Part shown: one piece after another, positions 43,079 through 63,863 of the stretch
How the letters are laid out: each line of letters starts with the position of its first letter
Numbering within the stretch: the stretch's first letter is position 1
Assembly (NCBI RefSeq): GCF_000739655.1
Contig: NZ_BATR01000081.1
Location: 1 to 64,000, forward strand
Length of the DNA: 64,000 nt
Direction: 5' to 3'
Source: Verrucomicrobium sp. BvORR106
GTDB lineage: Bacteria > Verrucomicrobiota > Verrucomicrobiia > Verrucomicrobiales > Verrucomicrobiaceae
Translations under genes and position numbers: made by a program
Notes under the pieces: generated by a model
What the model saw: the letters and a program-made list of their open reading frames with translations, nothing else
What the model was told of the DNA's origin: nothing
The model's database searches: none

Positions 43079-43160
43079 GCCAGAGTGGCGGAATTGGTAG
43101 ACGCGCCAGACTTAGGATCTGGTTTGGAAACAAGTGCAGGTTCGAGTCCTGTCTCTGGTA
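43079..43160 (+). tRNA. tRNA-Leu (anticodon UAG)
   Basis: Acceptor GCCAGAG (43079-43085) pairs with CTCTGGT (43153-43159, one G-U); discriminator A at 43160; CCA is not encoded. The anticodon stem CCAGA/TCTGG encloses CTTAGGA (anticodon TAG). A long variable arm and T-loop TTCGAGT are present, as in class II tRNA. An integrase gene follows directly, so its 3' end is the likely attachment core. Confidence 0.95.
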
Positions 43161-43261
43161 CGGAATAGGGCGATGATGCTGGAAAGCCCATAAAATAAGG
43201 GCTACAGCTCCGGTGAGTGCTCGGAATATTGACGGAATGCAGCGGTGTGATATCGGTTGGA

Positions 43262-44470
43262 ATGAAGGAAATTGACCGCAAACGGGCAAATGTGCGGGCA
43301 AAAACACCCGCAAATCGACCGCAATTGCCCGCAAAACCCTTCGTCGTGCATCTGGGTGTGAAGTACCCCCTATTGTTGGAACGTGGGCTTTGGCGCGTTC
43401 GGACCAGAAAGAAGGGCCATGAACTAGACGACAGCTTAGGGGAGGGCTCGCTCGACTGGGCAAAGAAGGAGTTCTACAGGAAGATGGCGGCTGGAGAGTT
43501 TACCAAGGTCAAGAAGAAGCCCGATCCGGATGAGGGCACCATGCAAAACCTCATGGACGTCTACGAGGAACTTCCCAAGCGCGCATCAGACGATGTCGCG
43601 GAGAGCAACATCAGCCGTCTCGCAGTCATCATTCGAACGGTGTTTGGACGTGAACCAAACAAGGTTGCAATCTCGGAGTTCACCTCAAAAACTTGGGAGG
43701 AGTTCCAAAGGATCCAGCAGGGTGGGAAGCTGGATCTCAGCAAGAGGCATCCAGATAATCAGGCTATCAACTCGGCCATCAAGCAGGCGAAGTCCGTGAT
43801 GACCAAGAAGCTTTGGCCATCGTTTGCCCAGAGAGGCATTACCATCAATCCTAACACTGCAATCGTGCAGTGGCTGCCCGAGGGGTACAAGCCGCCAGCG
43901 GAGGCAAAAGGCGATGACTTGGTAGCGGCCTGGGAGAAGCTCCAAAAAACGGACCTGCCCATGTGGTACACGATTGGCCTCGCCCGCTTTGCGGGACTTC
44001 GCCGGGAGGAGATCTCCGCAATGCGGCCGGAATGGGTAATCCGAAAGAAGGGGGTTCCATACGTGCGGCTCATGGACAGGCCTGAAGACGGCTTCTTCAC
44101 AAAAACCGGCAAGCCCTATCAAGCCATCATCCTTCGTGAAGATCTAGCCAAGGCAATCGAGGCTCTCCCCGTCGAGACTCTTGTAGTGCATCCGAAAACT
44201 CCAAATGATCGTGACAGGTGGTTTGAACGAGAGCCTCAGGCCTGGATTCGGCCTTTTGCGCCAAAAGCGCGTCTTCCGTTGCACCGGCTTCGCGGGCTCT
44301 ACGTTGACCAGGTGGCCGAAGAGCAGGAGGAAGCAATTGCAGCCCGACAAGAGGCCGTCAAGAAGGCCTCCAAGGCTGTGGGCCACACAACCACCAAGAT
44401 CACTGAGGATCATTACCTTACGCCGGAAGCGCTGAAGCAAAGCAGTTCAGTTGAGCAGGCGGTTTACTAG
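43262..44470 (+). CDS. Tyrosine integrase of the element at tRNA-Leu
   Basis: 402 residues from ATG 43262. It carries the tyrosine recombinase catalytic set: Arg in ARFAGLRREE near residue 246, HRLRG near 340-344, a His in VGHTTTK near 374 and the nucleophile Tyr in EDHYLT near 384. The N-terminal about 170 residues form the arm- and core-binding domains. It lies 101 bp after tRNA-Leu, reads away from it, and would cut and rejoin DNA at the tRNA 3' end. A GTG at 43217 is also in frame, but the ATG start gives a typical basic N-terminus. Confidence 0.85.
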   Translation: MKEIDRKRANVRAKTPANRPQLPAKPFVVHLGVKYPLLLERGLWRVRTRKKGHELDDSLGEGSLDWAKKEFYRKMAAGEFTKVKKKPDPDEGTMQNLMDVYEELPKRASDDVAESNISRLAVIIRTVFGREPNKVAISEFTSKTWEEFQRIQQGGKLDLSKRHPDNQAINSAIKQAKSVMTKKLWPSFAQRGITINPNTAIVQWLPEGYKPPAEAKGDDLVAAWEKLQKTDLPMWYTIGLARFAGLRREEISAMRPEWVIRKKGVPYVRLMDRPEDGFFTKTGKPYQAIILREDLAKAIEALPVETLVVHPKTPNDRDRWFEREPQAWIRPFAPKARLPLHRLRGLYVDQVAEEQEEAIAARQEAVKKASKAVGHTTTKITEDHYLTPEALKQSSSVEQAVY

Positions 44471-44605: not shown

Positions 44606-45334
44606 GTGATGCAATTGCCTATATCCATTTCACCATGTCCCATCGTTGAGGCGTCGTGTGAAATTCGATTCTCTACCGAATTCCCTGATGCGGCCGTTCC
44701 TGGCCTTCTTTTTCAACACCTACAGCCCGCGTTCCCGAAAATGTCGACGCTGCCGATCGCAAGTATGCCAGCAGAGTTGCGCCGCGCGGATCCGAATTTG
44801 TCGGTGCAACCGCTCTATCGACTCGATGGGCCTGAAATGTCTGCCCTCGTTGGTGATTCGTCCATTACCTTCACAGTTTCGGGCACATACAAGGGATGGT
44901 CATGGTTTCTCCCTGAGATTCTGAAGAATTGGAAGTTGGTGCTTGACTCCAAGGTTCCCACTGGGGTGAACCGAATAGGACTTCGATATGTTGATTTTTT
45001 CAAGGCAGACATCTTTCCCCTCACGAGAGTGAGATTTCAGCTGGGCGAGCAATCGTTGGTTGGAATGGAGACCTTCCTTAGAACCGGGATTGTATGGAAC
45101 GAAAAAAAATGTATCCTCCAGATCGGGAAAGACGTCCGGCTGACGAGCAGCGCCGAAATTGGCTCCGTTATTGATTCGGATGTATTTGAGATATTTGAAC
45201 AGCCAGGTGACCAGTCTGTCAGTTCTATAGAGAAATTTCTTGACGAAGCTCATGCCGCTGGCAAGCATCTGTTTTTTTCGATGTTAGATCCAGGTTTTCT
45301 CGCCGTCCTTAACCCTGTTTACGCACAGCCATGA
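44606..45334 (+). CDS. TIGR04255 family protein, first gene of a three-gene cassette
   Basis: 242 residues. The opening (PISISPCPIVEASCEIRFST) and the later WSWFLPEILKNWKLVLDS and GLRYVDFFK match TIGR04255, a sporadically distributed family of unknown function (pattern P...SPI.EA.CEIRF, then R.GLRY.N). It ends in an ATGA overlap with the next gene. Base composition is more AT-rich than the phage genes around it. The position directly after the integrase is the usual site for cargo such as anti-phage systems; that role here is inference. Confidence 0.7.
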   Translation: MMQLPISISPCPIVEASCEIRFSTEFPDAAVPGLLFQHLQPAFPKMSTLPIASMPAELRRADPNLSVQPLYRLDGPEMSALVGDSSITFTVSGTYKGWSWFLPEILKNWKLVLDSKVPTGVNRIGLRYVDFFKADIFPLTRVRFQLGEQSLVGMETFLRTGIVWNEKKCILQIGKDVRLTSSAEIGSVIDSDVFEIFEQPGDQSVSSIEKFLDEAHAAGKHLFFSMLDPGFLAVLNPVYAQP

Positions 45335-45612
45335 ATAGCTATTCATATTCTAGCGCACGCGCTATGCAGACGCTGTACACATGGGCAGTTGTACTGGGAA
45401 GTTTTTGCGGCCCTCCGCATACAGACAGGTGTAGGATTAGGTCCTACGAGGTTAATCAGCCTCGTGCTGCGGAGTCTTATCAAGTCCAAGTTCCATCAAT
45501 TAATGAAGGAGTGGTGTTGGAGAGGTTCGCGGATAGATTGGTGAGTGAAACCATTGACCTGCCTCAAGACGCGGCCGAGGTCATTGATAAGCATTTTTGG
45601 GATCTGCTATGA
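45331..45612 (+). CDS. Unknown 93-residue protein, second gene of the cassette
   Basis: Starts in the ATGA overlap with the TIGR04255 gene and ends in an ATGA overlap with the third gene. A short hydrophobic stretch (YTWAVVLGSFCGPP) near residues 16-29, a polar middle and a helical end (ERFADRLVSETIDLPQDAAE) are visible. No family is recognised. The tight coupling on both sides suggests a fixed ratio with its partners. Confidence 0.6.
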   Translation: MNSYSYSSARAMQTLYTWAVVLGSFCGPPHTDRCRIRSYEVNQPRAAESYQVQVPSINEGVVLERFADRLVSETIDLPQDAAEVIDKHFWDLL

Positions 45613-46196
45613 GCGAAGTCTTAGAAGACTTTAAACAATACCTGCCGACATACCTATCAGGGACAGCCAAGGACAACTTGTTCAAAGAGTTGGAGTCGTT
45701 CCCTAAGAATATTGATGAGCGGATTTACACCCGCAAATTGCAGGGTGAAGCCGTCGTGTTCCAAGGAGATGGCATCAAAGAAATGCCATTTATCAATCTG
45801 CCTAACGAAAAGGTTGGCCCCGCAAATGTCTTGGTTATTTCCAATACTTGTGACATTGACCCGACCAATCAGCGAGAAATTCCACTACAGGTTAGCTACT
45901 GCCCGATCGTCAAGCTAGGTTCTTGGCTTTCACGGTTGAGAGAGCCCGCGCCGCTTGATCAAGCTGTGCGGGCTCAGAGAGTTTCATCCATGTTTTACTT
46001 GCCGAAAAACGAGCACTTGAAGGATGACTCGGTGGCGCTCTTGGATCGTATGGTTAGTTGCTCGCCAAAAACGCTGCCCTTCGAGAACCTTCGAGAGAAG
46101 AAGCTATTCACCCTTAGCGACTACGGATTTTATCTTTTCCTCTTTAAGCTTTCAATTCATATGACGCGGATCCGCGAGGGCGTGGCGAGAACCTAG
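45609..46196 (+). CDS. Unknown protein with VLVISNTCDID motif, third gene of the cassette
   Basis: 195 residues from ATG 45609 (MSEVLEDFKQYLPTYLSGTA), overlapping the previous stop. The motif NVLVISNTCDIDPTNQREIP resembles a scattered set of small proteins with a 'T.TCD' strand that often accompany proteins of unknown defence-like function. The end is hydrophobic and helical (FYLFLFKLSIHMTRI). It is convergent with the RHH gene, with a hairpin between. Confidence 0.6.
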   Translation: MSEVLEDFKQYLPTYLSGTAKDNLFKELESFPKNIDERIYTRKLQGEAVVFQGDGIKEMPFINLPNEKVGPANVLVISNTCDIDPTNQREIPLQVSYCPIVKLGSWLSRLREPAPLDQAVRAQRVSSMFYLPKNEHLKDDSVALLDRMVSCSPKTLPFENLREKKLFTLSDYGFYLFLFKLSIHMTRIREGVART

Positions 46197-46234: not shown

Positions 46235-46258
46235 GGCGAGGATGGATATATCCTCGCC
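46235..46258. terminator. Possible bidirectional terminator
   Basis: GGCGAGGAT (46235-46243) pairs with ATCCTCGCC (46250-46258) around a 6-base loop, between two convergent genes. T-tracts on both sides are poor. Confidence 0.45.
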
Positions 46259-46278: not shown

Positions 46279-46593
46279 TTAAGCAGCATCCTTGAGCCCA
46301 TCGGCGATTTTGGAGGGGTCTTTCACCCTCTCCAAAATGTGAGCGAGGAGTTGACCTCGCACGCCCTTGCCGCGCTTCGTGAGAGCGAGGAGATTTTCGT
46401 CGATCTTGTCCTGCTCGGAAGGGGAGAGCTTGGACCATGGCAGCGTTGCCTCATGAGGGCCTTGCACAGTGAGATCGTACCGGACGAGGGCCTTGATATA
46501 GTCGGAAAGGGAGGCGTAACCGAGCTGCTTCGCCCTGATTTCAAGGGCTTCACCAAGGGCTTCAGGGAATCGGACGGTTCTAGGTTTTGACAT
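46279..46593 (-). CDS. Ribbon-helix-helix DNA-binding protein
   Basis: 104 residues. The start MSKPRTVRFPEALGEALEIR, followed by AKQLGYASLSDYIKALVRYD, is the Arc/MetJ/CopG pattern: a short strand (TVRF), helix, turn and second helix. The C-terminal 50 residues are charged and helical. An 18-bp perfect palindrome lies 23 bases upstream of its start, as expected for an autorepressed RHH regulator. It could control the cargo cassette facing it or the phage early region. Confidence 0.75.
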   Translation of the reverse strand: MSKPRTVRFPEALGEALEIRAKQLGYASLSDYIKALVRYDLTVQGPHEATLPWSKLSPSEQDKIDENLLALTKRGKGVRGQLLAHILERVKDPSKIADGLKDAA

Positions 46594-46615: not shown

Positions 46616-46633
46616 GTCATACAGCTGTATGAC
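46616..46633. promoter_or_regulatory. 18-bp palindromic operator
   Basis: GTCATACAGCTGTATGAC, perfectly palindromic, just upstream of the RHH gene and about 65 bp from the end of the convergently placed repressor gene. It is probably the RHH autoregulatory site. Confidence 0.65.
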
Positions 46634-57023: not shown

Positions 57024-57485
57024 ATGAATCAACAACTCTCATTCTTCATTCCGGGTGTTCCGGCACCGGGCGGATCCAAACGATTCGTCGGTTTCGGCAA
57101 GAAAACGAAGCGTGCCATCCTCATCGATGATGCCGGGCAGCGGAACAAAGACTGGCGGACTGCAGTCGGCTGGGCAGCACACGAGCACTTCAAAGGCGAG
57201 GTGCTTACCGGTGCCTTGAAGGTGACGTTCACGTTCTTCATGCCGCGGCCCAAGGGGCATCACGGGAAGCGTGGACTTCGCCCGTCAGCGCCAACTTTCC
57301 CCATCACCAAGCCCGATGCTCTCAAGCTGGCGCGGTCCACCGAAGACGCCCTGACAGGGATTGTTTGGCGGGATGACGCTCAGGTGGTCGATGGCGGGCA
57401 AAAAAAACGCTACGCGGACACCTGCTCTGCGGGGTGCTTGGTGGAGATCGAGGAGCTCAGCAACAACGGAGGTTTGGAGCTGTGA
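57024..57485 (+). CDS. rusA: RusA-family Holliday junction resolvase
   Basis: 153 residues. The start MNQQLSFFIPGVPAPGGSKR and later LKVTFTFFMPRPKGHHGKRG, ITKPDALKLARSTEDALTGI and WRDDAQVVDGGQKKRY give the RusA fold with the metal-binding aspartates (KPD, ED, DDAQV). RusA cuts four-way junctions during phage recombination, fitting the Erf/RecE genes upstream. It ends in a GTGA overlap with the PP-loop gene. Confidence 0.85.
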   Translation: MNQQLSFFIPGVPAPGGSKRFVGFGKKTKRAILIDDAGQRNKDWRTAVGWAAHEHFKGEVLTGALKVTFTFFMPRPKGHHGKRGLRPSAPTFPITKPDALKLARSTEDALTGIVWRDDAQVVDGGQKKRYADTCSAGCLVEIEELSNNGGLEL

Positions 57486-58648
57486 TCGCTCGGCAATCAA
57501 CGCTCTTTGAGAGCCAGCGCACGTCGCTTGAGGATTCCATTGTCACAACTGCCGCAAGCTTGAATGCCTATGGCATGGCCTATAAGCATTGGGCCATTGG
57601 CTTCAGTGGAGGCAAAGACTCTTCCACGGTGCTCTCTGTCGTAATCTGGCTGATCGAGACAGGCCGGGTGAAGGCTCCAGAGAGTCTGACAGTGCTCATG
57701 TCGGACACTCGATTGGAGATGCCGCCGCTATTCGCGACCGCTCAAAAGATTCTGCAAGAGGTGAGAGATCGCGGTCATAAGGCCCAGTTGGTGCAGCCCA
57801 CATTGGACGACCGCTTCTTCGTCTACATGTTCGGTCGCGGGGTTCCTCCGCCCAGCAACACCTTCCGCTGGTGTACTCCTCAGCTGAAGATTGAGCCGAT
57901 GGTGGGCGCTCTCAAGGCCCTCCGTGATCATTATGGGCAGAAGTTCCTCATGCTCACTGGGGTGAGGATTGGCGAGAGCGCAGCGCGTGATGCGCGTATC
58001 GCAGTTTCGTGCGGAAAGAACAATTCGGAATGCGGTCAGGGATGGTTCCAAGAGTCTACGCCCGAGGCGGTGGCTGATACGTTGGCGCCCATCCTGCACT
58101 GGAGACTTTGCCAGGTGTGGGACTGGCTGACGGGATTGGTGCCCGAGGGTTACGATCATGGTTTCTCCACGAAACTGATCGCGTCCGTGTATGGGCAAGA
58201 TGAAGACCTGGAGACCCATGCCCGCACCGGCTGCATTGCTTGCAATCTGGCAAGCCGGGATGTCGCTCTGGAGAACATCATCGCAAGGCCTCAATGGCGA
58301 TACCTTGCACCACTCCTTGAGCTTCGCCCACTCTATGCCGAGCTGAAAAAGCCGCACAACCGGCTGCGCAAAGACGGCACCGAGACGCGCCGCGATGGCT
58401 CTCTGGTGTCCAATCCCTGCCGCATGGGTCCGTTGACCTTCGAAGCGCGTCTCTGGGCTCTGGATCGTGTCCTGGATATTCAGGCGCGAGCTCGTGTCGA
58501 CCTCATCAACGCCGAAGAAGAAGCTCGAATCCGGGAACTCATCGCCCTGCAGACCTGGCCGCGGGGATGGGACGGCACCGAACCTCTCGCCTCCCTGCCT
58601 TTTGACAACGTGTTCCCTGACGGAAGCAAACAACCCAACCTCATCTGA
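57482..58648 (+). CDS. DndC-like PP-loop (PAPS reductase-type) protein
   Basis: 388 residues from GTG 57482, overlapping rusA. The PP-loop SGGKDSS is at 42-48. Then LMSDTRLEMPP (72-82), FRWCTPQLKIEP (128-139), TGVRIGESAARDAR (159-172) and RTGCIACNL (about 250) follow the motif order of DndC, the ATP- and cysteine-dependent sulfurtransferase of DNA phosphorothioation (its FRWCT...K, GVR..ES and GC..C blocks). The cysteines may hold an iron-sulfur cluster. No dndA, B, D or E homologue is near. Related PAPS-reductase-like proteins are frequent in phages with no settled role; DNA or tRNA thiolation is possible. Confidence 0.75.
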   Translation: MIARQSTLFESQRTSLEDSIVTTAASLNAYGMAYKHWAIGFSGGKDSSTVLSVVIWLIETGRVKAPESLTVLMSDTRLEMPPLFATAQKILQEVRDRGHKAQLVQPTLDDRFFVYMFGRGVPPPSNTFRWCTPQLKIEPMVGALKALRDHYGQKFLMLTGVRIGESAARDARIAVSCGKNNSECGQGWFQESTPEAVADTLAPILHWRLCQVWDWLTGLVPEGYDHGFSTKLIASVYGQDEDLETHARTGCIACNLASRDVALENIIARPQWRYLAPLLELRPLYAELKKPHNRLRKDGTETRRDGSLVSNPCRMGPLTFEARLWALDRVLDIQARARVDLINAEEEARIRELIALQTWPRGWDGTEPLASLPFDNVFPDGSKQPNLI

Positions 58649-62437: not shown

Positions 62438-63277
62438 ATGACCAAACCGAAAGCGGAAAAAGCGGACTCTCCAACTTCTGAAGGCGAGAAGGGCGGTGCG
62501 AAGAAGTGTTTTATCGTGACGCCCTTAGGTATGGACTCAAGCGACATCCGCCGTGCTGCAGATGGTCTGATTGATTCGGTGCTTGAGCCAGTTCTACGTG
62601 AAAAGGGCTTCATACCTATTCCCCCTCACAAGATCGACGATCCAGGCTCGATCACGAGGTCTGTGGTGCAGCACCTCCTTTTCGATGAGTTGGTCATCGC
62701 GAACCTCACGGGACTGAATCCCAATGTTATGTACGAACTCGCCGTGCGCCATTGCACACGAAAACCGGTGATTTGCTTGGCTGAGGACGTGACCAAGCTG
62801 CCGTTTGATATCGCGGTAGAGAGAACCATCTTTTACCGGAACGACATGAAGGGGATAATAGAGCTAAGACCCCAGCTCGAACGGATGATTGATGCTGCCA
62901 TCGCTGATGGTGTCGAAGTGGACAACCCAGTCTACCGTGTTGTGGATGAGACTGTCATCAAATCGACGGGCAAGGTTTCAGACGCCGAAGGATTGTTACT
63001 GCGCCGGTTAGACCGCATCGAACAGTTGATGCAGAAGGCAGAAAGAAGCTCTGGGCCACCTGGTTCAAGGGCACTGAATTCTAGGTACGTGAAATTGAGG
63101 GTCGATCCTTCCTCTGCTTCACTTGTGTCGCAGGTAATGCTTGGATATCCGAACATCATTTATAATCACAGTACAGACGGTACTTTTGAGGTGTACGGGA
63201 ATTCAGAACAGCTGAATGATATTCTCGGCATTCTCCACCGTGCGCAGGCAAAATTTGACACTGTGAGAACCGAATAG
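62438..63277 (+). CDS. Nucleoside 2-deoxyribosyltransferase/TIR-like protein (cargo gene)
   Basis: 279 residues. The core CFIVTPLGMDSSDIRRAADG (24-43), LLFDELVIANLTGLNPNVMY (81-99, directly followed by Glu100) and LAVRHCTRKPVICLAED (101-117) is the fold of nucleoside 2-deoxyribosyltransferases and related TIR-like proteins, with Glu100 in the position of the catalytic acid. A coiled segment (LLLRRLDRIEQLMQKAERSS) and a C-terminal domain of about 80 residues follow. Proteins with this core act as nucleotide- or NAD-cleaving effectors in some anti-phage systems. It is a lone gene between the replication and packaging modules, typical of phage cargo. Confidence 0.7.
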   Translation: MTKPKAEKADSPTSEGEKGGAKKCFIVTPLGMDSSDIRRAADGLIDSVLEPVLREKGFIPIPPHKIDDPGSITRSVVQHLLFDELVIANLTGLNPNVMYELAVRHCTRKPVICLAEDVTKLPFDIAVERTIFYRNDMKGIIELRPQLERMIDAAIADGVEVDNPVYRVVDETVIKSTGKVSDAEGLLLRRLDRIEQLMQKAERSSGPPGSRALNSRYVKLRVDPSSASLVSQVMLGYPNIIYNHSTDGTFEVYGNSEQLNDILGILHRAQAKFDTVRTE

Positions 63278-63281
63278 TGCA

Positions 63282-63863
63282 ATGCCCGCCCTCGCCAACA
63301 TCCGCCATGAGACCTTCGCCCTGCGGGTAGCCGCCGGGGCGTTGGCAGCTGCCGTCTACAGGGAGCTCTTCCCTCGCTGCTCGGTGGCGGCATCCAATGG
63401 CAGCGCGTCGGAACTCCTATCAAACCCAAAGGTTTCTGCCCGGGTAAAAGAGATAAGGGAGGAGATGGCGCAGCAGATGCAGACAGAGGCTTACCTGAGC
63501 CTGGACGAGAAGCGGCGAATGCTGGCAGACATTGCCAGGGTGAATGTGGTGACCCTGATGGATGACAAGGGCGCCCTGGACATCTCCAAGGTGAGGCAGC
63601 TGCCACCCTGGTGCATGCAGGAGCTGACGATCACGGAGCACGAGCGCACGGACAAGGATGGGAATACCACCACTACCAGGCAGATCCGCGTGAAGATGGT
63701 GGACAAGCTCCGGGCCATCGAGCTTGACACCGACCTCGAGGGCACCGGGAAGCCGCCGGTGAACACAAACGCTCGCATTGGGGCCACAAAGCGGGCGAGA
63801 GACTTGCTGAAGAAGCTCCCAGGGCATGGTGGGCACCTCATTGAAGCTGAAACCGCAAAATAG
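63282..63863 (+). CDS. Phage terminase small subunit
   Basis: 193 residues. The helical N-terminal DNA-binding part (VAAGALAAAVYRELFPRCSV, then ASELLSNPKVSARVKEIREE) shows the Terminase_2 pattern (AY...YP.......AS.LL.N.KV...I). A coiled middle (LDEKRRMLADIARVNVVTLM) and a basic C-terminus (TKRARDLLKKLPGHGG) follow. It recognises phage DNA and starts packaging with the large subunit, expected just beyond the right edge. It starts four bases after the cargo gene's stop. Confidence 0.75.
   Translation: MPALANIRHETFALRVAAGALAAAVYRELFPRCSVAASNGSASELLSNPKVSARVKEIREEMAQQMQTEAYLSLDEKRRMLADIARVNVVTLMDDKGALDISKVRQLPPWCMQELTITEHERTDKDGNTTTTRQIRVKMVDKLRAIELDTDLEGTGKPPVNTNARIGATKRARDLLKKLPGHGGHLIEAETAK

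Follow-up and report, generated by a model that had tools for sequence, protein, structure and literature searches.

In Verrucomicrobium sp. BvORR106, a tyrosine integrase is followed by three overlapping genes that form a real, previously unnamed module, best placed among toxin–antitoxin (TA) systems. The operon is conserved across several phyla, and behind its first gene, a member of the TIGR04255 family, one toxin family is exchanged for another. The module is probably a prophage-borne, tripartite TA system resembling toxin–antitoxin–chaperone (TAC) systems, with TIGR04255 as the shared component. The analysed DNA (the window) is a 64,000-nucleotide stretch of contig NZ_BATR01000081.1, in which the following features are placed:

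43079–43161, + strand: tRNA-Leu, the prophage integration site (ARAGORN)
43107–43163, no strand: attL, a 57-bp exact repeat with its second copy at contig positions 100389–100445, beyond the window
43217–44470, + strand: tyrosine integrase (phrog_1, E 5e-10), context outside the system
44609–45334, + strand: gene 1, TIGR04255/phrog_5464 protein of 241 aa (family profile match)
45331–45612, + strand: gene 2, 93 aa, putative antitoxin (ORF, relatives)
45609–46196, + strand: gene 3, phrog_4575 protein of 195 aa, putative toxin (family profile and fold model)
46235–46258, no strand: hairpin 3′ of gene 3 with a 9-bp perfect stem (sequence scan)

The whole module spans 44609–46196 on the + strand. 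Gene 1 starts at the ATG at 44609, immediately after a GTG at 44606, and ATGA overlaps join genes 1 and 2 (45331) and genes 2 and 3 (45609), with the integrase sitting between tRNA-Leu and gene 1; the open reading frames (ORFs) thus confirm the overlapping trio beside an integrase that the original prediction had described. Its claim that these genes are AT-richer than their neighbours also holds (G+C 0.48–0.49 for genes 1–3; within the window, prophage DNA has 0.57 and host DNA 0.61), and the hairpin it had placed after the operon is present. This hairpin possibly marks the end of transcription; a T run is absent and we do not call a terminator. The 57-bp repeat is the 3′ part of tRNA-Leu and its two copies lie ~57 kb apart on the contig, defining a ~57-kb prophage with the module just inside one end, an assignment backed by the genes for Erf, exonuclease VIII, a helicase and the terminase small subunit that lie between the repeats. 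An IMG/VR provirus (L006) encodes a gene 3 identical to the window copy.

Downstream of the module, an RHH regulator with a strong operator had been proposed. The palindrome stood (18 bp and perfect, GTCATACAGCTGTATGAC, 46616–46633, upstream of the leftward ORF 46282–46593) but the family did not, the ORF matching no RHH family in Pfam at E ≤ 1. From its position upstream of that ORF, the palindrome is more likely an operator for 46282–46593 or for a gene beyond it than for the module. No regulator family is often recurrent beside modules elsewhere, and we set the gene and its palindrome aside as neighbours. Other prophage genes merit mention in their own right. A 279-aa protein (62438–63277, + strand, with CFIVTPLGMDSSDIRR near its start) precedes the terminase small subunit gene (63282–63863), gives no Pfam match and is a possible second cargo gene; its start resembles TIR- or nucleotide-hydrolase-like effectors. 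A PAPS-reductase-like moron lies at 57434–58648 (+ strand; phrog_12882, E 2e-148; Pfam PAPS_reduct, E 1.3e-7), and a P63C-domain protein (E 1.7e-12; L220:12704–13756, equivalent to about 95.7–96.8 kb of this contig) is found towards the other end of the prophage.

The three-gene set recurs well beyond this prophage. It is carried by Pseudomonas phages VW-6S and Dobby, by a P. aeruginosa phage and by a Phocaeicola plasmid, in the last immediately downstream of an integrase; scans of IMG/VR and of GTDB species genomes returned 42 and 54 loci, respectively, from phyla including Verrucomicrobiota, Bacteroidota, Desulfobacterota, Pseudomonadota, Campylobacterota and Fibrobacterota. Among 73 distinct full-length gene 3 copies with sufficient upstream sequence, TIGR04255 lies upstream (counted at 150–500 bp from gene 3) in 71 and the middle gene is present in 69, the four exceptions lacking either a recognised gene 2 only (L074 and L079) or both partners (L097 and L101). 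The same gene order in 69 of 73 distinct loci is recurrence far above chance, and it decisively answers the check proposed for the original prediction, which a lack of co-occurrence in other genomes would have counted against. Around 66 modules, phage integrase is the commonest flanking Pfam family (14 of 243 ORFs) and the remaining flanking ORFs are mostly unrelated chromosomal genes, the pattern expected for mobile cargo; in this respect the predicted cargo module is real as well as conserved. Defence genes near modules (type I and III restriction, DrmA and others) are single occurrences, and we claim no enrichment. At one locus a SocA/Panacea antitoxin domain (L007:4288–4821, E 3.4e-15) lies directly upstream of a class-A module, the class defined by the gene 3 described below.

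Gene 1 was correctly predicted to be a TIGR04255 protein, matching the family at 106.5 bits over residues 8–231 (curated cut-off 30); it also matches phrog_5464. TIGR04255, phrog_5464 and phrog_4575 are names without assigned function, and neither TIGR04255 nor its InterPro number came up in the literature searched. PADLOC 2.0.0 (2023 library) returned no matches to genes 1–3 at E ≤ 1. The AlphaFold2 model of gene 1 (pLDDT 95.8) has weak and mixed fold matches, to TBP, AdoMetDC, guanidino kinases and Med18/20 (best Z 8.6). SecB is not among the fold matches listed, from which we claim fold kinship neither way; by sequence, SecB was rejected as an identity for gene 1 (no Pfam SecB match at E ≤ 1; hhalign against six SecBs, 0.4%).

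Surveying TIGR04255 on its own in four phyla reveals a hub of exchangeable operons. The family occurs in roughly 4–8% of sampled genomes (13/289, 30/398, 24/395 and 23/297 by phylum), rates that are rough because sampling took a single genome for each species and some hundreds for each phylum, every phylum sample including at least one genome picked for having the module. A same-strand gene follows within 60 bp at 86 of 100 TIGR04255 loci, against 17 of 100 upstream, and the commonest offset to the next gene is the ATGA overlap. Third genes are diverse: at 95 TIGR04255 loci not chosen for class A they comprise class B (34), the MazF-fold family of gene 3 (9), HEPN (7), PemK/MazF (7), ‘VLSH’ (5), PIN (4), DUF7689 (4), ‘QDCD’ (4), U165 (4) and HicA-like proteins (3), with 14 unassigned. 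The PemK (E 2.6e-12) and PIN (E 8.7e-9) identities are secure, and the HEPN identity is secure for its cluster as a whole (the cluster profile matches PDB HEPN at E 2e-8); the HicA-like label is weak (Pfam E 0.068), the PDB matches of its profile looking chance-like. Mapped onto the TIGR04255 tree, the effector label requires at least 18 changes compared with 52 in shuffles, which indicates that effectors are inherited within clades and exchanged between them. A HEPN-type operon is carried by Sulfurimonas phage SNW-1, and a plasmid search for TIGR04255-linked PemK found none. The commonest partners, those of class B (L105, L109, L112 and others), are two unnamed families, one for gene 2, marked by a WDG...LEW-like pattern, and one for gene 3, of 150–180 aa; the representatives tried gave no Pfam match. 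On the Thermus brockianus pTB1 megaplasmid (L227), a TIGR04255 gene follows a CopG–VapC pair a few kb from cas6, the reverse of the order in the other operons.

Gene 3 belongs to the function-unknown phage family phrog_4575 (E 3e-38, profile positions 6–206 of 209). Its AlphaFold2 model, built with 52 homologues (mean pLDDT 92.4), predicts a MazF/PemK/CcdB-type fold at residues about 46–190, preceded by N-terminal helices (1–45). Foldseek against the PDB places MazF proteins as the best match (E 4.6e-6, probability 1.00), and VIA aligns MazF over 113 residues (Z 11.4), with CcdB and Kid also among the matches. Profile comparison finds neither a Pfam PemK_toxin match (PF02452, E ≤ 1) nor a link to the TIGR04255-linked PemKs (hhalign, 6.6%), placing the likeness to MazF beyond the reach of sequence comparison alone. 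In a registration made by hand on the shared VLVIsN strand, the residues common to the 52 homologues include neither an Arg at position 72 nor a Thr at position 101, the places of the catalytic Arg and Thr of MazF (Arg precedes the RP-VLVI strand and Thr is on the next); the family instead has invariant Q52 and D54 (in QGD) and S78, N79, C81 and D82 (in SNTCD). These results rule out a plain MazF and point to a predicted toxin-type fold with a putative active surface of its own, outside the MazF family. Several other third genes (L188, L166, L204, L205 and L144) bear S/T-Q/H-x-C-D type patterns (TQDCD, SQACDI and SHPCSLL) and, judging from these short motifs, may be further relatives.

Gene 2, without a family match in the four libraries searched, is usually 93–135 aa long and is formed by a variable first part and a conserved tail containing (F/L)WDL; the window copy ends HFWDLL. 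A natural chimera separates the two parts. Within Desulfobacterota, operons L188 and L190 encode TIGR04255 proteins that agree at 218 of 257 positions (85%), and their gene 2 products share 57% identity over residues 1–82 and are unrelated beyond; the third proteins are also unrelated, a QDCD-type protein in one and PemK in the other. The gene 2 N terminus thus follows TIGR04255 and the tail follows the toxin, and the L190 tail is common to other PemK-type gene 2 proteins. PemKs that lack TIGR04255 have short antitoxins with endings like gene 2 tails (EWDNELDKVYDEL in one, WDAL and WDAI in two others); the further resemblance of these endings to the class A (F/L)WDL is short and no more than suggestive. 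Only one such chimera is known from the loci compared: viral scans with two TIGR04255 subfamilies turned up none, a Desulfobacterota search returned only the two known loci, and comparing all gene 2 proteins with one another revealed no further clear example.

This division bears on a reading, which we consider unlikely, in which the main antitoxin is TIGR04255, acting like the Panacea domain as a promiscuous hub and neutralising many toxins directly, with gene 2 an adaptor or DNA-binding regulator. TIGR04255 stays constant while toxins vary, and gene 2 of one class contains an XRE-type HTH (E 3.4e-5), as this reading would have it; yet the chimera ties the gene 2 tail to the toxin, 85% identical TIGR04255 proteins serve two unrelated toxins, and the PemK antitoxins that stand without TIGR04255 have gene-2-like endings. 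Panacea (PanAT; PMC8832971) similarly pairs a single family with many unrelated toxins, but in its two-gene systems Panacea does the neutralising, whereas here the toxin-specific tail would reside on a separate middle gene; a Pfam search revealed no sequence link between genes 1–3 and Panacea.

A defence module outside TA, in which the gene 3 fold serves recognition and a small exported or membrane-associated gene 2 helps to block phage entry or replication, seems to us quite unlikely. The prophage and integrase setting, the absence of MazF catalytic residues from gene 3 and a hydrophobic N-terminal stretch in many gene 2 proteins of class A (best 19-residue hydropathy, median 1.46) are consistent with it; the window gene 2 reaches only 0.81, short of strong hydrophobicity, which leaves a membrane protein unsupported for this copy, and recognised toxins occupy the third place in sister operons. 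The original prediction of a defence or superinfection-exclusion module is accordingly kept in part: the cargo set stands, the unspecified type of defence gives way to parts that point to TA with exchangeable toxins, and superinfection exclusion by the module is unsupported.

The closest parallel to the tripartite TA reading is TAC (M. tuberculosis HigBA1-SecB-TA and CmdTAC; PMC5105189, PMC11618068), in which an antitoxin extension creates dependence on a dedicated protein and extension–chaperone pairs are transferable between toxin families (PMC5105189). Both comprise three-gene operons in mobile or defence contexts, both have exchangeable toxins, often ribonucleases (here PemK, PIN, HEPN and HicA-like proteins in sister operons), and the two-part antitoxin of TAC, with one part specific for the toxin and one for the third protein, has a possible counterpart in gene 2, as suggested by the sequences of one chimera. 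They differ in the third protein (TIGR04255 here, SecB in TAC), which is encoded first here, and in the third-protein-linked part, N-terminal here where the ChAD sequences of TAC are C-terminal (PMC5105189). MazEF and PemIK (type II TA) offer a second comparison, through the predicted MazF/PemK/CcdB fold of gene 3, the true PemK in some TIGR04255 operons and the similarly ending antitoxin tails; unlike these systems, gene 3 has neither the catalytic Arg/Thr nor a Pfam PemK match, carries an N-terminal helical extension and is accompanied by a third gene that looks required.

The CmdTAC trigger is a phage capsid protein that titrates the chaperone, upon which the antitoxin undergoes degradation and the toxin becomes active (PMC11618068). 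By analogy, gene 3 would be the toxin, acting through its own surface on a MazF/PemK/CcdB fold, and gene 2 the antitoxin, its conserved C-terminal tail binding and neutralising gene 3 and its N-terminal part engaging gene 1. In the manner of the SecB-like chaperone of TAC, gene 1 would serve as a dedicated guard of the antitoxin and a sensor, a guard common to many operons that differ in toxin. Were gene 1 titrated or disturbed, for prophage cargo most plausibly by a protein of a competing phage, gene 2 would become unstable and be degraded, freeing gene 3 to arrest growth, and the outcome may be phage defence. Operon conservation (71/73 and 69/73), the predicted gene 3 fold, toxin exchange, the chimera and the PemK antitoxin tails all argue for a TA system. 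Against it are a gene 3 with neither MazF catalytic residues nor a profile link to PemK, a TIGR04255 protein that is not SecB by sequence and has weak, mixed fold matches, the single occurrence of the chimera, and a commonest partner class (B) with no recognised toxin. A module for maintenance (addiction) or lysogeny, one that keeps the prophage stable and plays no part in defence, is improbable, its TA-like parts in a mobile element and the phage VW-6S copy adjoining a CI repressor being set against many copies amid unrelated chromosomal genes and a constant third component that pure addiction explains less well than sensing, although mechanistically it can be reconciled with the guarded TA system preferred here.

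More tentatively, these operons may together represent a large, so far undescribed TIGR04255 family of tripartite TA systems in several phyla, with a non-SecB guard of N-terminally extended antitoxins that acts as a phage sensor and behind which toxins (MazF, PIN, HEPN and HicA-like proteins, together with new MazF-fold and unknown effectors) are freely swapped. Through its exchangeable toxin cassettes TIGR04255, a family with no function assigned so far, gains a testable role, and the same link points to several toxin and antitoxin families that would be new, of which class B alone, still without a recognised toxin, is the commonest. If true, chaperone-guarded toxin systems would have emerged repeatedly, and SecB would not be their only sensor.
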